Below are positions 8,217 through 61,976 of a DNA stretch of 64,000 bases, one piece after another; position 1 is the stretch's first letter, and every line of letters begins with the position of its first letter. A program made the position numbers and the translations under genes. The notes beneath the pieces were generated by a model, which saw only the letters and a list, made by a program, of their open reading frames with translations, ran no database searches and was not told the origin of the DNA. Location of the stretch: positions 124,001 to 188,000 of the IMG/VR virus record IMGVR_UViG_3300046660_000488. One strand, 5' to 3'. This DNA comes from a virus.

Positions 8217-8292
8217 GCGGGTGTAGCTCAATGGCTAGAGCGCTACCTTGCCGAGGTAGAGGTTGTGGGTTCGAGTCCCATCACCCGCTCCA
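8217..8292 (+). tRNA. tRNA-Gly (GCC)
   Basis: A 76-base cloverleaf: 7-bp acceptor GCGGGTG/CACCCGC, anticodon stem CTACC/GGTAG, anticodon GCC at 8250-8252, TTCGAGT loop, U73 and encoded CCA. It is the first gene of the array. Confidence 0.95.
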
Positions 8293-8325
8293 GATGTCTT
8301 AGGAACCAGTCTCCGCTACTTCCAC

Positions 8326-8400
8326 GGAGCATTCCTCTATCGGCTAAGAGACCCGGTTTTCACCCGGACAAGAGGGGTTCGATTCCCCTATGCTCTACCA
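8326..8400 (+). tRNA. tRNA-Glu (TTC)
   Basis: 75 bases, acceptor GGAGCAT/ATGCTCT with a terminal G-U pair, anticodon TTC at 8359-8361, A73 and encoded CCA. The outer anticodon pair is a C-A mismatch. Confidence 0.92.
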
Positions 8401-8402
8401 AT

Positions 8403-8477
8403 GTCTCGTTCGTATATCGGTTAGTATGCTGGACTTTCACTCCAGAGGGACGGGTTCGACTCCCGTACGAGACACCA
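8403..8477 (+). tRNA. tRNA-Glu (TTC), second copy
   Basis: 75 bases, perfect acceptor GTCTCGT/ACGAGAC, anticodon stem CTGGA/TCCAG, anticodon TTC at 8436-8438, A73, CCA. It starts 2 bases after the preceding tRNA, yet the two sequences differ widely. Confidence 0.92.
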
Positions 8478-8551
8478 AATAAAGTAAAGAAAGGTAGTTG
8501 ACACAGATTTCGAAGTAGAGTTTAAGAGTAACCGAAGTATTCGACTTGCAC

Positions 8552-8626
8552 GGACCATTAGTCTATGGGTTAAGACGTTGCGTTCTCAGCGCGAAGTAAC
8601 GGGTTCGAGTCCCGTATGGTCTGCCA
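8552..8626 (+). tRNA. tRNA-Glu (CTC)
   Basis: 75 bases, acceptor GGACCAT/ATGGTCT, anticodon stem TTGCG/CGCGA, anticodon CTC at 8585-8587, G73, CCA. It reads GAG, which the two TTC tRNAs read by wobble. Confidence 0.92.
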
Positions 8627-8663
8627 AGTCTTGTATTTCACAGTATAGATGTTTCGTTGTGTT

Positions 8664-8738
8664 GGTTCTGTAGCTCAGTGGGAGAGCGTCCGGTTGTCAG
8701 CCGGAAGGTCGCGGGTTCGAAACCCGTCAGGACCGCCA
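8664..8738 (+). tRNA. tRNA-Asp (GTC)
   Basis: 75 bases, acceptor GGTTCTG/CAGGACC, anticodon stem TCCGG/CCGGA, anticodon GTC at 8696-8698, G73 as expected for Asp, CCA. Confidence 0.95.
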
Positions 8739-8753
8739 TCACCAAACATCTAT

Positions 8754-8828
8754 GCGGCTGTAGCTCAGGGGTAGAGTACTGCACTGTCGATGCAGTTGTC
8801 GCGGGTTCAAATCCCGTCAGTCGCGCCA
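8754..8828 (+). tRNA. tRNA-Asp (GTC), second copy
   Basis: 75 bases, acceptor GCGGCTG/CAGTCGC, anticodon stem CTGCA/TGCAG, anticodon GTC at 8786-8788 followed by G37, G73, CCA. The body differs from the first Asp tRNA. Confidence 0.93.
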
Positions 8829-8841
8829 TTTCCGGACCTGC

Positions 8842-8847
8842 TAAATA
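8842..8847 (+). promoter_or_regulatory. late promoter inside the tRNA array
   Basis: CTAAATAC with TAAATA at 8842-8847, 10 bases before the next tRNA-Gly. It would give the last two Gly tRNAs their own late transcript. Confidence 0.5.
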
Positions 8848-8857
8848 CAGGTTCAAT

Positions 8858-8932
8858 GCGGGTATAGCACAGTGGTAGTGCGTCAGCTTGCCAAGCTGAA
8901 GGTCGTCGGTTCGAACCCGACTACCCGCTCCA
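8858..8932 (+). tRNA. tRNA-Gly (GCC), second copy
   Basis: 75 bases, acceptor GCGGGTA/TACCCGC, anticodon stem TCAGC/GCTGA, anticodon GCC at 8890-8892, U73, CCA. Confidence 0.95.
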
Positions 8933-8950
8933 GTTTTCGCACTTCAGTGC

Positions 8951-9024
8951 GCGGGTATAGCATAGTGGTAATGCAGCAGCCTTCCAAGCTGAGTAGCGGG
9001 GTTCGATTCCCCGTACCCGCTCCA
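8951..9024 (+). tRNA. tRNA-Gly (TCC)
   Basis: 74 bases, the same acceptor as the preceding tRNA-Gly, anticodon TCC at 8983-8985, one mismatch at the outer anticodon pair, U73, CCA. It looks like a duplicate of the neighbour with a changed anticodon arm. Confidence 0.92.
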
Positions 9025-12400: not shown

Positions 12401-12406
12401 TAAATA
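12401..12406 (+). promoter_or_regulatory. T4-like late promoter, leaderless
   Basis: TAAATA followed by TTGCA and the ATG at 12412. Confidence 0.7.
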
Positions 12407-12411
12407 TTGCA

Positions 12412-13710
12412 ATGCGCGCAGAACAACTCTTCGAAGACATTTTCCTGACCGACCGGATGTCGGCGTTCGAGGCTATCCGCCAGCATCCGAACCTGTTCGT
12501 GCACTTTTCGTCGGGCATCACCCGCGATGGTCAGCGCTCCCCTAGCGCTCCGAAATTCGGCATCAATCCGAGCAAGACCCATGGCGACCCGCCGGGCATC
12601 TATTTCTACTACAATCGCTGGCTCCTGAAATCGGACGACGTGTCTGACGGCCAGTACGGCGTCCACGGCTCCGAATATTTCTGGGTGTGCAACATCACCA
12701 AGACGTCCAACTCGCTCAACATCGGAGCGATGAAGAAAGAGGACGCCATTCGCCTTGCCAAGCGCAACGGCTGGGAAGACGAATACTACGACTGCATCCG
12801 CAAGGGCAACGTTCTCACGTCATCGCAGACCGCGAAGGCTGCGAAGACCGTTGGAGGCCAGTTCTGGGGCATTATGGACTATCTGGTCAACGAGGCGAAG
12901 ACGCACTCGTGGCTGAAGCTCTTGCGCGGCGTTGACGCGATTTTCGATTCCGGCCTCGGCATCATCAACTACCAAGAACCGGCTCAAGTCATCGTCCTGA
13001 ACAAGGCGCTGATCAAGATCGTCACCTTCGGTACGAACCGCGACAAGCAGGGCAACGTCGTCGCTCGCACCGTCAAAGCGTTCTCGGACAAGATCGGCGG
13101 AAGGTTCAGCTTCAAGTACAAGAGAGCGATCATCGACTTCGAGATCGATGGCGCCCCGGTGCAATGGAGCTTTGACGATTACGGCCGCAAGTCCACGTCG
13201 CAGTTCAAGGAGGGTTTCTGGGTCACTGACACTGAACCTCGCAGCATGGCGTCACAAGACGCCAATTGGTTCGGCGAAGGCCTGATGAAGTCGTACGAGG
13301 CCCTGAAAAGATACGGCAAGCTTGAGAAGACTGGGACGGTCTCCGAGTGGAGTCCACAGTCGGCCGTCGAATTCTCTAAGCAGTTGTTCACCAAGGCGCT
13401 TCTCTACAACCGCACCAACGTCAAAGACGGCGTTCTGATCATCACCGGCGACAACACCGGCGTGCTGTCTTCGTACAACCGGATCGAAGTAAATCACGAC
13501 GGTTCCGTGATGTTCCTGATCGATTTTTACAAGCGTGGTGGCGTTGAGGTTTGCAAGGCAGAAGCCACGTTCCCGGCCAAGACTCCGCGCAGCCATATCG
13601 TCGCCGAGCTTCGCAAGCAGTTGATTTCCTCGGCGAACCAAGCGGTCGAAAAGAAAGAAGTGGTCAGCCTCGAAAAGCTGGCCGCCGTCACAGGGCTCAT
13701 TTTGTCCTGA
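12412..13710 (+). CDS. capsid-tagged protein with ART-like N-terminal region
   Basis: A 432-residue protein whose N-terminus MRAEQLFE-DIF matches the tag of the other putative internal head proteins, with an L-F-E cleavage site. The next segment (LFVHFSS, GINPSKTHGDPPGIYFYY, about residues 27-66) resembles a phage family with an ART-like entry (HFT...GVNP...GIY). The rest is unrecognised. It is expressed from a late leaderless promoter. I infer a protein packaged in the head. Confidence 0.65.
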   Translation: MRAEQLFEDIFLTDRMSAFEAIRQHPNLFVHFSSGITRDGQRSPSAPKFGINPSKTHGDPPGIYFYYNRWLLKSDDVSDGQYGVHGSEYFWVCNITKTSNSLNIGAMKKEDAIRLAKRNGWEDEYYDCIRKGNVLTSSQTAKAAKTVGGQFWGIMDYLVNEAKTHSWLKLLRGVDAIFDSGLGIINYQEPAQVIVLNKALIKIVTFGTNRDKQGNVVARTVKAFSDKIGGRFSFKYKRAIIDFEIDGAPVQWSFDDYGRKSTSQFKEGFWVTDTEPRSMASQDANWFGEGLMKSYEALKRYGKLEKTGTVSEWSPQSAVEFSKQLFTKALLYNRTNVKDGVLIITGDNTGVLSSYNRIEVNHDGSVMFLIDFYKRGGVEVCKAEATFPAKTPRSHIVAELRKQLISSANQAVEKKEVVSLEKLAAVTGLILS

Positions 13711-13712
13711 AC

Positions 13713-13718
13713 TAAATA
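13713..13718 (+). promoter_or_regulatory. T4-like late promoter
   Basis: CTAAATAT followed at once by a 6-bp hairpin (ATGGCT TTA AGCCAT, 13718-13732). It drives the Acb1-like gene. Confidence 0.6.
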
Positions 13719-13773
13719 TGGCTTTAAGCCATGAGCAATGGCTATAGTTAACTCATACTTTAGAGCCATTTTC

Positions 13774-14298
13774 ATGCGAGCCATTGAGATTTTCGAGCGT
13801 AGTAGCGCCACCAAAGGCGACTTCAAGACGCTGTATTGCAGCCGCAAGCTGCTGAACGGCAAAGAGATCGTCGAGTGGGCGAAGAGCCAAGGGCTCCCCA
13901 AGTGCTTGGACCCGGATAACATGCACGTCACCGTTGCTTACTCCAAGGAGAAAATCGACTGGTCTGAAATGACCGACAGTTTCGACAACGTCCGCAGCGA
14001 CGGCGGCAAACGCGAAATGGCGCTGTTCGGCCAGAACAAGGACGCGGTGGTCCTGAAATTCGAGTGCCCCGATCTGGACAGCCGCTGGCAGGAATTCAAG
14101 GACGATTTCGGCGCCTCGTGGGATTTCGACGGCTACAATCCCCACGTGACGATCTCCTATGACGGCCTGCCCAAGGGCATCGACATTGACGACATCGAGC
14201 CGTTCGAAGGCGTGCTGGAATTCGGTCCCGAGAAAATGGACATCGTCGATCTGAAGTGGCGCGGCAAGGTCAAGGAAACCAAGCTCGACACCGAATAA
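13774..14298 (+). CDS. acb1: Acb1-like anti-CBASS 2H phosphoesterase with capsid tag
   Basis: A 174-residue protein. It has the two His motifs of the 2H phosphoesterase fold, HVT at 51-53 (NMHVTVAYS) and HVT at 124-126 (YNPHVTISYD). The segment VVLKFECPDLDSRWQEF and DFGASWDFDGYNPH is typical of the Acb1 family, which degrades cyclic oligonucleotide signals of CBASS defence. The N-terminus MRAIEIFE-RSS matches the capsid tag, so the start at 13774 is preferred over the in-frame ATG at 13738. A head-borne copy could act before any phage gene is expressed; that is an inference. Confidence 0.75.
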   Translation: MRAIEIFERSSATKGDFKTLYCSRKLLNGKEIVEWAKSQGLPKCLDPDNMHVTVAYSKEKIDWSEMTDSFDNVRSDGGKREMALFGQNKDAVVLKFECPDLDSRWQEFKDDFGASWDFDGYNPHVTISYDGLPKGIDIDDIEPFEGVLEFGPEKMDIVDLKWRGKVKETKLDTE

Positions 14299-16069: not shown

Positions 16070-18019
16070 ATGTCATTGTCACTATTCGATACTTTCAAGG
16101 AAAAGTACGCCAAGTCGAAGGTCGAGGTCATGCCGTTGGGCGACTACCTCGAACTCTGCAAGACTGAGCCGATGGCGTATGCCACCGCGCCCGAGCGTAT
16201 GATCGCCGCAATTGGCGAACCCCAACTGGTGGACACCGCGAGCGATCCGCGCCTGTCCCGCGTGTTCCTGAACCGCACCGTCAAGGTCTACCCGGCCTTC
16301 AAGGATTTCTACGGCACGGAAGCTGTCGTGGAACGGATCGTCTCGTACTTCCGGCAAGCGGCCCAAGGGCTGGAAGAGCGCAAGCAGGTTCTGTACCTTC
16401 TCGGCCCGGTCGGCGGCGGCAAGTCGTCCATCGCCGAGCGTCTGAAGCAACTGATGGAAGCCAACCCCATCTACGTGCTGGCTGTCGATGGTCCGGACGG
16501 CAAGCCGGAACTCAGCCCGGTGTTCGAGACCCCACTGGGCCTCTTCCCGGCCGAGCACTACGCCTCGACGATGGCCGAGCAATACGGCATCAACAAGCGC
16601 TACCTGAACACCATCATGAGCCCGTGGGCGTCCAAGCGCTTGCGTGAATTCGAAGGCGACATCACCCAGTTCAAGGTGGCCAAGGTCTGGCCGTCGCGTC
16701 TGGAACAAATCGCCATCTGCAAGACCGAACCCGGCGACGAGAACAACCAAGACATTTCCTGCCTCGTGGGCAAGACCGACATCCGCAAGCTGGAGTTCTT
16801 CAGCCAGAACGATCCGGACGCCTACGCCTTCTCCGGCGCTCTGAACCGGGGCAACCAAGGCATCATGGAATTCGTCGAAATGTTCAAGGCGCCGATCAAG
16901 GTGCTGCACCCGCTGCTGACGGCCACGCAAGAAGGCAACTACGTCGGCACGGAAGCGATCTCGGCGATCCCGTTCAACGGCACGATCCTCGCGCACTCCA
17001 ACGAGAGTGAGTGGCAGTCGTTCCGCAACAACAAGAACAACGAAGCCTTCCTCGACCGCATCTGCGTGATCAAGGTCCCCTACTGCCTGCGCGACACCGA
17101 AGAGAGCAACATCTACCAGAAGATGCTCAACGGCTCGACGCTGTCGGAAGCCCCGCTGGCTCCGGAAACCCTCTCGCTGCTGTCGCGCTTCAGCGTGCTC
17201 AGCCGCCTGAAGGACCACCCCAACTCGACCCTGTGGTCGAAGATGCGGGTCTATGACGGCGCCAACATGAAGGAGACCGATCCGCGCTCCAAGTCGGTGC
17301 AGGAATACCGCGACGACGCTGGCGTGGACGAAGGCATGAACGGTATCTCGACTCGCTTCGCGTTCAAGATTCTGTCGAACGCCTTCAACTACGACACCGA
17401 AGAAATCGGCGCCGACCCGGTCCTGCTGATGATGGTGCTGGAGGAAGCGATCCGCCGTGAACAATTCCCGGCCGAGATCGAGAAGAAATACCTCGGGTTC
17501 CTGAAGGACGATCTGGTTCGCTCCTACGCCGAATTCGTCGGTAGTGAAATCCAGACGGCCTACCTCGAAGCCTACGACGAGTACGGTCAGAACCTGTTCG
17601 ACCGCTACATCGAGTACGCCGACCACTGGCTGCAAGAGATCGACTACAAGGACCCCGACACCGGCAACCTGTTCAACCGTGCGGTCCTGAACAACGAACT
17701 CGAAAAGATCGAGAAGGCGGCGGGAATCGGCAACCCGAAGGACTTCCGCCACGAGACGGTCAATTTCGTCCTGCGTCAGCGGGCTCGTGGCAACTCGGTG
17801 ACGTGGACCAGCTACGAGAAACTGAAGCGGGTCATCGAGAAGAAGATGTTCTCGTCGGTCGAAGAGCTTCTTCCGGTCATCAGCTTCGGCTCGAAGCAGG
17901 ACAAGGACACGGAACGCAAGCACAAGGACTTCGTCGAGCGGATGGAGAAGAAGGGCTACACGGCCCGCCAGACCCGCCGCATCGTCGAGTGGTACATGCG
18001 GACCCGCAAGTCGGGCTAA
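16070..18019 (+). CDS. prkA: PrkA (YeaG) family serine kinase / AAA+ protein
   Basis: A 649-residue protein, the family's usual length. Walker A is LGPVGGGKSS (111-120), and the AAA core with NGTILAHSNESEW and FLDRICVIKVPYC follows. The C-terminal half is the kinase-like domain of PrkA. In bacteria PrkA/YeaG acts with YeaH and SpoVR/YcgB in nitrogen starvation, stationary phase and sporulation. Here all three genes form one operon in a phage. The start is fixed by GGAGG upstream. Confidence 0.93.
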   Translation: MSLSLFDTFKEKYAKSKVEVMPLGDYLELCKTEPMAYATAPERMIAAIGEPQLVDTASDPRLSRVFLNRTVKVYPAFKDFYGTEAVVERIVSYFRQAAQGLEERKQVLYLLGPVGGGKSSIAERLKQLMEANPIYVLAVDGPDGKPELSPVFETPLGLFPAEHYASTMAEQYGINKRYLNTIMSPWASKRLREFEGDITQFKVAKVWPSRLEQIAICKTEPGDENNQDISCLVGKTDIRKLEFFSQNDPDAYAFSGALNRGNQGIMEFVEMFKAPIKVLHPLLTATQEGNYVGTEAISAIPFNGTILAHSNESEWQSFRNNKNNEAFLDRICVIKVPYCLRDTEESNIYQKMLNGSTLSEAPLAPETLSLLSRFSVLSRLKDHPNSTLWSKMRVYDGANMKETDPRSKSVQEYRDDAGVDEGMNGISTRFAFKILSNAFNYDTEEIGADPVLLMMVLEEAIRREQFPAEIEKKYLGFLKDDLVRSYAEFVGSEIQTAYLEAYDEYGQNLFDRYIEYADHWLQEIDYKDPDTGNLFNRAVLNNELEKIEKAAGIGNPKDFRHETVNFVLRQRARGNSVTWTSYEKLKRVIEKKMFSSVEELLPVISFGSKQDKDTERKHKDFVERMEKKGYTARQTRRIVEWYMRTRKSG

Positions 18020-18028
18020 GCACTGACG

Positions 18029-18055
18029 GAGAGGCGTCTATTTTGGCGCCTCTCC
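18029..18055 (+). terminator. hairpin after prkA
   Basis: GGAGAGGCG and CGCCTCTCC form a 9-bp stem around a U-rich loop. No U-run follows, so it may only attenuate or protect the prkA end before yeaH. Confidence 0.5.
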
Positions 18056-18097
18056 ACCACCGCCACGATTGCTTTAGTACCATTTCTGAGTAGGCAT

Positions 18098-19432
18098 ATG
18101 ACTGGCTGCATCATTATCGACCGTCGCAAGAACCCCAAGGACAAGAGTCTGTCCAACCGCCAGCGGTTTTTCGAGCGGGCCAAGAAGGCTGTGCGCGAAG
18201 CCGCCAAGCGGACTCTGGCTGGCCGTTCGCTGTCGGACACGGGTGATGCGATCATCAATATCCCGACCGAAGGCTTGGGCGAGCCCCATTTCCATCACGA
18301 CAACAACGTCGGCGAATACGACATCGTCCTGCCCGGCAATCGGCAGTTCATCGTCGGCGACAAGATCAAGAAGCAACAGGACGGCGAAGGCGGCGGCCGT
18401 GGTAGCGGCGGCAATGGCGAAGGCGGTGAGGACGATTTCCAATTCGCCCTGACGCACGAAGAATTCCTCGACGTCATTTTCGACGATCTCGAACTGCCGG
18501 ACCTGATCAAGAAGACCGAACGCAACGCCGTGGCGTTCGCGCCCAAGCGCGCGGGTCACACCAACGTCGGCATGCCCTCCAACCTGAACGTCGAGAAGAC
18601 GGCTATCGCAGGCATCGCCCGACGCTTGGCTCTGCGGGCGCCCAAGAAGCGCCAAATCCGCGAGCTTGAGGACGAATATCGCGAAGTTCTGGCCAAGTTC
18701 CACGACGCTCAGGACTCCGGCCTCATCTACGCCCTGACCACGCGACTGAACGAGATCATCACCGAAGTCGTGGCGCTGGAACGCAAGATGGCGGCGGTCG
18801 GCTTCCTCGACGACGTGGACCTTCGCTACAACAACTTCGTCCAGCAGCCCAAGCCGATCACTCAGGCCGTGATGTTCTGCATCATGGACGTGTCGTTCTC
18901 GATGGGCGAGCGCGAGAAGATCATCGCCAAGAAATTCTTCATCCTGATGAACCTCTTCCTGAAGCGTCGGTACGAGAACATCGACGTGGTCTTCGTTCGC
19001 CACCACAGCGAAGCCATCGAATGCGACGAGGAAACGTTCTTCACGAGCCGTGAAGGCGGCGGAACGGTCGTGTCGTCCGGCTATCGCAAGATGATCGACA
19101 TCATGAAGGATCGCTACGCCTCGGATGACTGGAACATCTACATGGCCCAAGCATCGGATGGCGACAACTACGATGGCGACAACGGCGAGGTCACCCGCTA
19201 CCTGAGCGAGGAAATCCTGCCGGTGATCCAACACTTCACCTACATCGAAATCGTCGATGAGTGGCGTAAGCAATTCTTCGGCGACCCGTCCGGCGGCTAC
19301 AGGTCCAACCTGTGGCAAACCATCGACGCGATTGCCAGCCAGTTCGAAAACGTCTCGGCCGCCATGCTCGAAGACGAAAGCGAAGTGATCCGCGTGTTCC
19401 GCAACCTCTTCAAGTCAGAGAAATCCCAGTGA
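18098..19432 (+). CDS. yeaH: YeaH/YhbH (DUF444) family protein
   Basis: A 444-residue protein. The N-terminus is basic, a Gly-rich acidic linker lies at about 88-110 (GEGGGRGSGGNGEGGEDD), and a von Willebrand A domain begins at about 255 with the MIDAS motif DVSFSMG (264-270). This is the standard partner of PrkA. The stop overlaps the GTG of the spoVR gene. Confidence 0.93.
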   Translation: MTGCIIIDRRKNPKDKSLSNRQRFFERAKKAVREAAKRTLAGRSLSDTGDAIINIPTEGLGEPHFHHDNNVGEYDIVLPGNRQFIVGDKIKKQQDGEGGGRGSGGNGEGGEDDFQFALTHEEFLDVIFDDLELPDLIKKTERNAVAFAPKRAGHTNVGMPSNLNVEKTAIAGIARRLALRAPKKRQIRELEDEYREVLAKFHDAQDSGLIYALTTRLNEIITEVVALERKMAAVGFLDDVDLRYNNFVQQPKPITQAVMFCIMDVSFSMGEREKIIAKKFFILMNLFLKRRYENIDVVFVRHHSEAIECDEETFFTSREGGGTVVSSGYRKMIDIMKDRYASDDWNIYMAQASDGDNYDGDNGEVTRYLSEEILPVIQHFTYIEIVDEWRKQFFGDPSGGYRSNLWQTIDAIASQFENVSAAMLEDESEVIRVFRNLFKSEKSQ

Positions 19433-20898
19433 CCACGCTTCCCCTCTGGACAGATTCTGAATGGTCGTTCGAGCGCATCCGTCGCGTCTATGACGAGTGC
19501 GAAAAGATCGGCATCGGTGAGCTTGGTCTGGACATCTACCAGAACCAGTTCGAGATCATTTCGTCCGAGCAGATGATCGACCGCTACACCAGCGTCGGCA
19601 TGCCGCTCTACTATAACCATTGGTCGTTCGGTAAGCAGTTCTCGCGCGAGTGGGACAGCTACAAGGCTGGCAAGTCGGGTCTCGCGTACGAGTTGGTCAT
19701 CAACAGCAACCCCTGCATCAATTACTTGATGGAGGACAACACGATGACGACCCAAGCTCTCGTCATCGCGCACGCTGCTTTCGGCCACAACCATTTCTTC
19801 AAGAACAACTACATGTTCAAGACGTGGACTGACGCCGACGCCATCGTCGATTACCTCGTGTTTGCCCGCGATTACGTGGCCGAGTGCGAAGATCGTCACG
19901 GCCGCCAAGCGGTAGAAACTTTCCTCGACAGTTGCCATGCTCTGCAAGAGTACGGCGTGAACCGCTACGTGCGGCCGTCCAAGCTGTCCCTGAAGGATGA
20001 GCGCAAGAAAGCCGCCGAGCGCGAGGCGTACCTGCAAACGCGGGTGGACGAACTGTACCGGATCATCCCCGACAAAACGGCCACCAAGGAGAAGGAAAAG
20101 TTCCCGAAGCAGCCGGAAGAGAACCTTCTGTATTTCTTCGAGAAGAATTCACCGAAGCTGGAGCCGTGGCAACGTGAGTTGATCCGCATCGTTCGCAAGA
20201 CTTCGCAGTATTTCTACCCGCAAGGTCAGACGAAAATCGCCAACGAAGGCTTCGCGACGTGGACACACTACACGATCATGAACCGTCTGCACGACAAGGG
20301 CCTGACGACTGACGGCGCGCACCTCGAATTCCTGAAGCTGCATGCTGGCGTCATCTTCCAGCCGGACTATGACGACAAGTATTTCTCTCTGCCGCTGAAC
20401 CCCTACAAGCTGGGTTTCGAAATCCTGCGGGACATCGAACGCATCTGCAAGGAGCCCACGGACGAGGATCGCCACTGGTTCCCCGACATCGTCGGCGAAG
20501 ACCCGGTCGAGGTGATCAAGGACGCCGTCGCCAATTACCGCGACGAAAGCCTGATCCGCCAGTTCCTGTCACCCAAGGTGATCCGCGATTTCCGGTTCTT
20601 CCAACTGAAGGACAACCGGGAATCTGACCACTATCTGGTCGAGACGATCCAGAACGAAAAGGGCGTGCTGGATATTCGCGACAAGCTGGCCCAGCAATCC
20701 GAACGCGACACGCGCCTGCCGAACATCGAGATCGAGGAATGCGATCTGGAGAACCGACGCCTGTACCTTCGCTACTCGCCCAACGGCACGAAGGAATTGA
20801 GCGACGCCACCGAAATGATGCGGCACGTCCGCCGCCTGTGGGGCTACAGCGTCTACCTCCGCGACACCAAGGGCAAGCTTCTGGGACTGGTTCAATGA
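19429..20898 (+). CDS. spoVR: SpoVR (YcgB) family protein
   Basis: A 489-residue SpoVR protein, close to the family's usual 500. Typical segments are YYNHWSFGKQF, ELVINSNPCINYLMEDN, HAAFGHNHFF and GFATWTHYTIM. The GTG start at 19429 overlaps the yeaH stop (GTGA), so translation is coupled. SpoVR is linked to spore cortex formation in Bacillus and is conserved with PrkA and YeaH elsewhere; the chemistry is unknown. Confidence 0.93.
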   Translation: MTTLPLWTDSEWSFERIRRVYDECEKIGIGELGLDIYQNQFEIISSEQMIDRYTSVGMPLYYNHWSFGKQFSREWDSYKAGKSGLAYELVINSNPCINYLMEDNTMTTQALVIAHAAFGHNHFFKNNYMFKTWTDADAIVDYLVFARDYVAECEDRHGRQAVETFLDSCHALQEYGVNRYVRPSKLSLKDERKKAAEREAYLQTRVDELYRIIPDKTATKEKEKFPKQPEENLLYFFEKNSPKLEPWQRELIRIVRKTSQYFYPQGQTKIANEGFATWTHYTIMNRLHDKGLTTDGAHLEFLKLHAGVIFQPDYDDKYFSLPLNPYKLGFEILRDIERICKEPTDEDRHWFPDIVGEDPVEVIKDAVANYRDESLIRQFLSPKVIRDFRFFQLKDNRESDHYLVETIQNEKGVLDIRDKLAQQSERDTRLPNIEIEECDLENRRLYLRYSPNGTKELSDATEMMRHVRRLWGYSVYLRDTKGKLLGLVQ

Positions 20899-33474: not shown

Positions 33475-34686
33475 TTACTGGAATTCCGTGCCGCCCTTGC
33501 GGCCACCATAGTCTGGGCTCACCCACTTCACGATCTTGCGGCCGTGGCGGATGTGGCGGTTGTTACCGCCGTCGAGCCCGGTGATCACCACGCCCTCGCG
33601 GATGTGCTTGCCGCTGAAGCTGTCCTTGCCGTCGCGCACGGCGCGCAGGGCGTCCGCGTCGAACGGACCCTCGTAGAGCTTGGGAACGACGTCCATGCCC
33701 CATTGCTCGGCCAGCATGGCGACCGTCTCATAGGGAAGCCAGAGGCCGTTGGTCGTCTCACCGACGAACACGTCGAACAGGGCGATGCCGACGTCCTTCT
33801 TGTTGCGGCCGTACTTCAGGTCTTGGGCGCCGTAAATCTCGGCGAAGGCGCGCACCGGCAGGCCCGCGCAGATCGCCATGCTGAAGGCGGCGATGTTCGG
33901 CTCGAATTGCTTCAGGATGCTGTTCAGGGCGCGGGTGTAGACGTTGTCGTTCGGCTCGCCGTCGTCTTTCGTCTTCTTGAAACTCATGCCCTTCCCGGCC
34001 ATCAACTTCGACGAAATGTAGACGCTCTTGGTCACGCCGAAACAGTGCTCGTGGTTCAGGCCGGGCACGTAGCCGATCTGGACGTTGAAGCCGTGAATTT
34101 TCTCCGTGCCGATGACGGGCTCACCCGGCTCGAACATGTCGGTCTGGTCTTGGATACTGTCGAAATCGTAGCGCAGCGAAACGCCGAACGAGTTGAAGAC
34201 CGACCCTTGGTTCTCGGGTGGTATCTCCGGCTCGTACTTGGTGATGCCGAGCTTGGCGGCGACGTCCGTGCCCACGGTCACGTAGTAGCTGTGGCCTTCG
34301 CCTTCCAGCGGGAATTCGTACTCGGGGTTCCCCTCCAACTCCCAGAGCAACGTGGGGTCGGCGTCTTCCGGAATCGGGACCGGGATCAGCGGCAGGACGA
34401 TGCCTTGAGAGTAGATGCCGCGCAGCCGGAGGGGATGGACGCGATTGCCTTGCGGCCCGGCCAGCCTGCCCATGTTGGTTTCACGGTTCCAGAAATTGTG
34501 GCGGACCAGAATCCAGTCCGGAACGATGGCGCCTTCGGGGACGTAGATGATCGCGTCGCCGGGCTTGTACTGGTTGCGGCCGACCACGCATTCATAGCCG
34601 CCGACCTTGGCGACCGACAGGACGTCGCCGGTGGGGTGATCGTAGACTTCGTCGATCTTGCGGACTTTGACAGCGAAGGTGGACAT
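33475..34686 (-). CDS. RNA ligase, DRB0094 type
   Basis: A 403-residue protein. The N-terminal OB-type domain (1-110) precedes a nucleotidyltransferase core: motif I TEKIHG with Lys196 as the adenylation site, RAFAEIYG as motif IIIa-like, EGVVITG as motif IV and KWVSPDY as motif V near the end. This order, with an N-terminal OB module, matches the Deinococcus DRB0094 RNA ligase family. It would seal RNA nicks, for example in tRNAs cut by host defences. Confidence 0.85.
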   Translation of the reverse strand: MSTFAVKVRKIDEVYDHPTGDVLSVAKVGGYECVVGRNQYKPGDAIIYVPEGAIVPDWILVRHNFWNRETNMGRLAGPQGNRVHPLRLRGIYSQGIVLPLIPVPIPEDADPTLLWELEGNPEYEFPLEGEGHSYYVTVGTDVAAKLGITKYEPEIPPENQGSVFNSFGVSLRYDFDSIQDQTDMFEPGEPVIGTEKIHGFNVQIGYVPGLNHEHCFGVTKSVYISSKLMAGKGMSFKKTKDDGEPNDNVYTRALNSILKQFEPNIAAFSMAICAGLPVRAFAEIYGAQDLKYGRNKKDVGIALFDVFVGETTNGLWLPYETVAMLAEQWGMDVVPKLYEGPFDADALRAVRDGKDSFSGKHIREGVVITGLDGGNNRHIRHGRKIVKWVSPDYGGRKGGTEFQ

Positions 34687-50353: not shown

Positions 50354-50668
50354 TTAGAACAGGATCACCGGGACCGTGGCGATCCCCAGTTCCTTGGCCG
50401 CGTTCGCGCGGTGGCGACCATCTTCCTTGCCATTGGCGTAGATGATCAGCGGATCGAGCGTCCGCCCGCTCTGGATGTGGTTCTTCAGGTCGTCGATATT
50501 GTCGCGCGAGACGTCGTCGATTTCGAGCGGCCGAACCTTGCTGAGGTATTCGTCCGGGGTCATGGACACCATCCTCCCACCGTTCTGCTGATAGTTGGCC
50601 TCGCCGTACCACTCATCGCGAGGGGCCAGCGGATAGGAACGGGCTTCGGTCAATTCGTGAAAGCGCAT
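50354..50668 (-). CDS. capsid-tagged ParB-like protein
   Basis: A 104-residue protein. The N-terminus MRFHELTE-ARS matches the capsid-tag pattern with an L-T-E cleavage site. The remainder is a small ParB/sulfiredoxin-like domain: VRPLEIDDVSRDNI, LDPLIIYANGKEDGRHRANA. TAAATA lies 4 bases before the ATG. It resembles the C-terminal module of the 504-1802 protein. Confidence 0.72.
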   Translation of the reverse strand: MRFHELTEARSYPLAPRDEWYGEANYQQNGGRMVSMTPDEYLSKVRPLEIDDVSRDNIDDLKNHIQSGRTLDPLIIYANGKEDGRHRANAAKELGIATVPVILF

Positions 50669-61259: not shown

Positions 61260-61976
61260 ATGACCAACATCGTCATTCTAACCGGAGCGGGCATTAGCGC
61301 CGAATCCGGCATCCAAACGTTCCGCGACAGCAATGGCCTGTGGAACAATCACCGCGTCGAGGACGTCGCCACGCCGGAGGGTTTCAAGAACAACCCGCGC
61401 CTCGTGAACGATTTCTACAACGTCCGCCGGGCGGAACTTAAGACGGTCGAGCCCAACGACGGTCACCGGGCGCTGGCGAAGCTGGAAGAGGCGTGGAAGG
61501 ACATCGGCGGCTTCCTGCTGATCACCCAGAACGTGGATGACCTGCACGAGCGCGCCGGATCGAAGAACATCGCTCACATGCACGGCGAGCTTCGCGGCAT
61601 CCGTTGCACCGGCGAGGACTGCCGCAACCACGGCTACACCGACGACAACATCGGCATCGACACCCTGTGCGAAGACTGCGGCTCACCCATGCGGCCCGAC
61701 GTCGTCTGGTTTGGCGAGTTCCCCAAGTACCTGTCCCAGATCGACCGGGTGCTCGACAACACCGACATCCTGATCGTGATCGGAACGTCCGGGCAGGTCA
61801 TGCCCGCCAGCCTGTTCCCGACCGCAGTGCGACACATGAACCCCAAGGCCAACATCATCGAGGTCAACCCCGACCCGACGCGGGCGGCGGCGTTCAACTA
61901 CATCGTGGAAGGCGCTGCGGCGGTGGTTCTACCCGTGCTGGTGGACAACCTAATCGAACAGTGCAAGCCACGCTAA
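61260..61976 (+). CDS. sirtuin (Sir2/CobB-like NAD-dependent deacylase)
   Basis: A 238-residue protein. GAGISAESGI (9-18), TQNVDDLHERAGS and the catalytic His in HMHGEL (about 108) are all present. Two Cys pairs (C-x4-C and CEDC) form the zinc site. YNVRR after the first helix resembles the Tyr-Arg pair of desuccinylating class III sirtuins. It could remove acyl groups from host proteins or affect NAD. It is expressed late, between neck genes. Confidence 0.92.
   Translation: MTNIVILTGAGISAESGIQTFRDSNGLWNNHRVEDVATPEGFKNNPRLVNDFYNVRRAELKTVEPNDGHRALAKLEEAWKDIGGFLLITQNVDDLHERAGSKNIAHMHGELRGIRCTGEDCRNHGYTDDNIGIDTLCEDCGSPMRPDVVWFGEFPKYLSQIDRVLDNTDILIVIGTSGQVMPASLFPTAVRHMNPKANIIEVNPDPTRAAAFNYIVEGAAAVVLPVLVDNLIEQCKPR

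Follow-up and report, generated by a model that had tools for sequence, protein, structure and literature searches.

CBASS is usually pictured as an alarm that acts late in infection, and Acb1 as an enzyme produced during infection. The locus examined here raises the question of whether a phage might also carry Acb1 into the cell from outside. A first-pass annotation of a 64,000-nucleotide stretch of phage DNA (the window; bases 124001–188000 of a 578,292-base virus record) had described an Acb1-like enzyme fused to a capsid tag. It proposed that a copy delivered with the DNA would neutralize the CBASS signal at once. We asked whether the gene encodes an Acb1, whether its N-terminus is a head-targeting leader, and what else could account for the same features, which are collected in Table 1. 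Positions refer to the window unless stated otherwise, and a slash within a peptide marks a cut or predicted cut.

Table 1. Features of the Acb1 locus, other tagged genes of the window, and the prohead protease gene of the record
Feature	Position	Strand	Details
Acb1-family 2H phosphoesterase gene	13774–14298	+	ATG 13774 to stop 14298, 174 aa
Capsid-targeting-like tag MRAIEIFE	13774–13797	+	predicted protease cut after Glu8; common to 17 other phage proteins
First catalytic HVT motif	13924–13932	+	residues 51–53 = T4 H44/T46; alignment to T4 57B
Second catalytic HVT motif	14143–14151	+	residues 124–126 = T4 H113/T115; alignment to T4 57B
TAAATA, T4-late-promoter-like element	13713–13718	+	55 nt ahead of Acb1 start codon
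Predicted stable leader hairpin	13718–13784	+	encloses Acb1 start codon; RNA fold –24 kcal/mol, z = –3.0 versus shuffles
Neighboring tagged protein, MRAEQLFE/DIF	12412–13710	+	432 aa; just upstream of Acb1
TAAATA of the neighboring tagged gene	12401–12406	+	5 nt before start
Tagged protein, MRAREILSE/LGL	504–1802	–	432 aa; TAAATA 5 nt before ATG
Tagged protein, MRFHELTE/ARS	50354–50668	–	104 aa; TAAATA 4 nt before ATG
S77 prohead protease	333863–334501 of record		PF03420, 86.6 bits

The gene encodes a member of the Acb1 family

The start, end and strand given for the reading frame by the annotation are correct, as read from the sequence. An alternative in-frame ATG at 13738, which would add 12 residues, was rejected because the tags of three relatives align with the 13774 start. 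The Acb1 profile PF23474 matched the protein with 126.8 bits against a curated cut-off of 27 (E = 7e-37), far above the LigT and 2'-5' RNA ligase models; generic 2H models matched only weakly. Among solved structures, phmmer returned the C-terminus of the Pam3 portal (8hds, 2e-20) and FBB1 Acb1 (7t26, 4e-9). NCBIfam and PADLOC searches with the protein gave no useful match.

The two HVT motifs form the HxT/HxT catalytic tetrad, H51/T53 and H124/T126. Among 39 sequences, H51 and T53 are invariant and H124 is nearly so. When the protein is aligned to T4 57B, residues Y12, H44, T46, F107, H113, T115, E138 and W147 of the latter correspond to Y21, H51, T53, F118, H124, T126, E153 and W162, while the adenine contact E141 is replaced by D156. 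Y21, F118 and W162 of the base-stacking and lid set are thereby kept, and the W74 column has no confident alignment. Most of the T4 ligand-contact positions named in PMC9117128 are retained along with the tetrad.

An AlphaFold (AF2) model, built from 34 aligned relatives, had a mean pLDDT of 89, with most values exceeding 90 from about residue 17 onward, in the enzyme domain. Its least confident part is the tag end, where pLDDT averages 51 over the first ten residues and drops under 50 at residues 8–11. Foldseek ranked FBB1 Acb1 first (7t26/7t27; E = 2.8e-8 and TMt 0.77 for 7t26), followed by a Burkholderia phage phosphodiesterase and then LigT, the last at only 4e-4. The annotation's observation of both HVT motifs within an Acb1 pattern is thus borne out by profile, motifs, predicted fold and ligand contacts, and by these measures the membership of the predicted enzyme in the Acb1 family is firm, activity excepted.

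Even so, a packaged 2H enzyme might act on RNA and not on CBASS signals, either opening for ligation the 2',3'-cyclic ends left by host RNases such as tRNA anticodon nucleases, or degrading RNA. Such roles are common among 2H enzymes, and an RNase function is one option proposed for these 2H domains (PMC5512222). PHROG 755 bears the label 'RNA ligase', and the window holds both an RNA ligase gene (33475–34686) and eight consecutive tRNA genes (Gly, Glu, Asp; 8217–9024). We consider an RNA role unlikely, given the margin by which PF23474 outscores the LigT and RNA ligase models, the retention of the Acb1 aromatic and lid positions, and the report that such 2H versions were never found linked with RNA ligases (PMC5512222).

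Two other loci of the window can be mentioned here. Genes for a PrkA kinase, a DUF444 protein and SpoVR are consecutive (16070–20898), forming a YeaG/YeaH/SpoVR-like stress operon on a phage, and a Sir2-family protein is encoded at 61260–61976.

The N-terminal tag is shared across the phage proteome

The N-terminus of the phage Acb1 reads MRAIEIFE/RSS. We captured its form in the pattern MR..[EQ][LIVF].{0,3}E, which marks 18 of the 866 predicted proteins of the phage. It occurs at 18 N-termini among 1,300 candidate ATGs, compared to 1 of 3,391 internal methionines (p = 1e-9). The pattern was composed on this genome; for independent tests we turned to two related contigs and to a selection of genes by promoter only, which ignores protein sequence (see below). 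In both contigs the enrichment was repeated: 17/1,423 N-termini versus 3/3,336 internal methionines in the 561-kb G003 (p = 5e-7), and 11/884 versus 3/2,368 in the 415-kb G002 (p = 9e-5). When all N-termini were instead scored against that of Acb1 alone, 15 (Acb1 included) reached a score of at least 12, with 1.5 expected.

The protein encoded just upstream of Acb1 has tagged relatives in both contigs, and in G002 such a relative likewise lies ahead of Acb1; tagged relatives of the 504–1802 product were also found in both. Injected ADP-ribosyltransferases have a classic example in T4 Alt. Three ART-PolyVal ADP-ribosyltransferases belong to the tagged cargo of the present phage; one matches strongly, the second barely exceeds the Pfam cut-off and the third falls short of it. 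Also tagged are a GNAT acetyltransferase, a cell-wall hydrolase and a SprT-like protein.

Tagged genes are associated with a late-promoter-like element

TAAATA forms the core of late promoters in T4. We found it within 60 nt upstream of 13/18 tagged genes, compared to 80/847 other genes (p = 6e-10), and within 90 nt upstream of 14/18 versus 96/847. Similar proportions were seen in G003 (12/17 tagged versus 93/998 others) and G002 (8/12 versus 66/634). The usual spacing in tagged genes, 4–5 nt ahead of the ATG, implies leaderless messages. Among ORFs picked by promoter alone, 26/54 carried one of two tag forms, compared to 19/1,137 other starts; the second form was noticed only after the promoter selection, and its share of the 26 is descriptive. 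A gp55-like late sigma factor is also encoded by the phage, although the match is weak (E = 3e-6).

In the whole record (G000), about 54 ORFs start 4–6 nt after TAAATA (e.g. in L025, L024 and L005). Many of them bear the second tag form, MR[DE]-L/F/Y-I-x-L/I-x-E (MRDLISLMENY, MREYINIVESN), which suggests a larger set of injected proteins.

The strong tie between tagged genes and a TAAATA 4–5 nt before the ATG makes an early-codon effect conceivable, such that the shared N-terminus would serve the translation of leaderless mRNA; alternatively, it might target proteins to another phage structure. However, the tag is absent from roughly half of the ORFs that have the TAAATA promoter, among them ORFs of 991 and of at least 2,000 codons, the Acb1 gene is tagged yet not leaderless, and the hydrophobic-x-Glu site described below exceeds controls. 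We therefore regard another purpose of this kind as very improbable. The Acb1 gene is itself exceptional, in that its TAAATA lies 55 nt from the start codon and not at the 4–5 nt typical of tagged genes, and this counts against the explanation we prefer, a late-made and packaged Acb1. Within the Acb1 leader there is a possible 9-codon upstream ORF at 13718.

The tag ends in a predicted prohead protease site

The tag ends in hydrophobic-x-Glu, the same form as the site cut by the T4 prohead protease in IPI. To examine this feature apart from the rest of the tag, we picked proteins by residues 1–6 only and sought hydrophobic-x-Glu at residues 7–11. The site was present in 17/29 picked proteins of this phage versus 1/11 internal controls (p = 0.01), in 14/24 versus 0/18 for G003 (p = 4e-5), and in 10/18 versus 1/6 for G002 (p = 0.17). 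Of the T4 proteins used as controls, IPIII begins MKTYQEFIAE/A and IPI has TITE/A at residue 19 of 95, a position that agrees with the 76-residue mature form (PMC3012670).

The phage encodes the corresponding protease, of the S77 family, and a gp23-type capsid protein (303.8 bits). Its head genes are ordered portal, gp67-like, protease, scaffold, capsid protein, which matches T4. The predicted site of the capsid protein, LLE/SATAG, is also of the hydrophobic-x-Glu form, as judged by eye.

Support for describing the N-terminus as a capsid tag comes from the genome-wide sharing of the tag, its hydrophobic-x-Glu end, the T4-type prohead protease, the late-promoter-like elements and a cargo that resembles T4 Alt. 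At the level of sequence, a head-targeting leader cut by the protease is well supported.

Acb1 in relatives and other phages

Relatives were found by an alignment-based scan of viral contigs; a single-sequence scan gave only a distant 2H protein. The three closest (54–61% identity) keep the tag, starting MKITELFE, MKIEDLFE and MRAFELFE. In each, the ORF is longer, with the tagged Acb1 first and further domains after it (L087:4001-5962, L088:4001-5491 and L089:4001-5077). The Acb1 domain is followed by another Glu-Ser site (KVNE/S, KVNE/S and KLTE/S, respectively), and these junctions could be further cuts, as if in a head-processed polyprotein.

Acb1 of the cultured Alishewanella phage Slickus01 (WGH49808.1) starts MNITELYE/A. 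Seven Slickus01 N-termini, that of Acb1 included, score at least 18 against this tag, compared to 0 of 813 internal methionines, and many of the matches adjoin ART-like sequence. An S77 protease is encoded here too. In record OQ508957.1 (L052), tandem genes at 86.6–93.3 kb start MKID.LYESLLEEG, several of them with ADP-ribosyltransferase-like VFHAT/VYHST motifs. A tree placed the tagged relatives beside the Acb1 of the window, and Slickus01 Acb1 with the T4 branch. Because of long branches the rooting is unsafe, and we claim no direction of change.

Tag sharing with Acb1 was weak in G010 and was not found in G009, whose gene list is without its Acb1. The N-termini of T4-like Acb1 proteins are often tag-like by eye; we left these out of the evidence.

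The protein could also be a true Acb1 with a tag-like N-terminus that does not package it, acting late and in the cytoplasm of the same cell, as in T4. T4 57B begins MMEFKDFSTGLY, with no Glu cut site, and T4 Acb1 is active only from ∼15 min after infection (PMC9117128), so in T4 the enzyme works without packaging. Moreover, we saw no tag shared with Acb1 in QD01 or G005. Against this stand the retention of the tag in the three relatives, its occurrence on many unrelated proteins, and the independently tagged Acb1 of Slickus01. We judge an unpackaged Acb1 to be distinctly unlikely.

The 2H proteins of LR756502 and similar huge phages were not taken as Acb1, their PF23474 matches being weak. 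In huge phages other than the present one, 2H proteins start MIKKYLEFMKES (L035:1405-2329) and MKLKKYKQFIKES (L036:640-1956), and the genes adjoining the former begin MKYIKLFES and MKYIMTFES.

In many of the 80 best Acb1-domain loci, the protein that bears the domain is either ∼600 aa long, like the annotated portals of phage records, or 1,000–2,400 aa. Taken with the tagged Acb1, these proteins indicate that carriage of an Acb1 domain by the virion is likely a common feature, reached by more than one route. At portal loci such as L058:1115-2980, Acb1 forms the C-terminal part of the portal, as it does in the Pam3 portal of known structure (8hds).

Comparison with known systems

The phage protein shares with T4 gp57B and FBB1 Acb1 (PF23474) the HxT/HxT tetrad, the fold, most ligand-contact residues and a stand-alone length, but unlike them has an N-terminal tag in common with other proteins of its phage, a predicted cut site in that tag, and a late-promoter-like element. 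With T4 IPI/IPIII and Alt it has in common a short N-terminal propeptide ending in hydrophobic-x-Glu, an S77 protease, and cargo directed at host defense or host machinery. Here, however, the cargo is a predicted cyclic-nucleotide hydrolase and the tag is MRxxEIxE, not MKTYQEFIAE. Portal-fused versions (Pam3 portal 8hds; Rhizobium, Pseudomonas and Synechococcus phages) belong to the same Acb1 branch and are likewise predicted virion parts, but theirs lie covalently within the portal, whereas the protein described here is separate and predicted to be packaged and cut.

For polyvalent proteins in which a 2H domain is fused to a portal or MuF, Iyer et al. 2017 (PMC5512222) predicted that this domain is injected and would act either as an RNase or by breaking down defense nucleotides. 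Their argument for delivery drew on the fusions and the late-gene context; a T4-type tag was no part of it. In the T4-like phage MP1, a gp57B homologue was listed among virion proteins with two peptides, and the authors warn of possible impurity (PMC5384007). Our search of the open-access literature found no demonstration of a packaged anti-CBASS protein. The annotation's remark that delivery had not been described for Acb1 holds to that extent, but has to be qualified by the predictions for injected 2H domains and by the many Acb1 domains on portals. The idea of an injected Acb1-type domain is partly anticipated by Iyer et al.; a tag-directed, protease-released Acb1 appears to be new.

A proposed route for Acb1 and its implications

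In the explanation we favor, Acb1 would be made late in infection, and the tag MRAIEIFE would act like a T4 capsid-targeting sequence, guiding Acb1 into the prohead's scaffolding core. There the S77 protease would cut after Glu8, leaving mature Acb1 among the packaged DNA, with which it would enter the next cell. Once injected, it would hydrolyze the cyclic di- and trinucleotides of CBASS, so that the alarm fails ahead of phage gene expression. Here packaging, cleavage, injection, substrate and timing are all things we infer. We think that a late-made, head-packaged, trimmed and injected Acb1, removing CBASS signals from the start, is probably the right account and the best one for these data.

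A broader proposition is that injection in large T4-type phages follows a tag-based program: dozens of late, mostly leaderless genes encode effectors that share a cleavable head-targeting peptide, and Acb1 has joined this cargo on two or more occasions, so that protection from CBASS precedes all phage gene expression. For this we see the chances as evenly balanced. With the tag as a simple sequence rule, it may become possible to list which proteins large T4-type phages inject, and the rule can be put to the test by virion proteomics in cultured phages such as Slickus01. If Acb1 is indeed pre-loaded, it would cancel the CBASS alarm from the first moment of infection, or blunt those CBASS systems that are triggered early.
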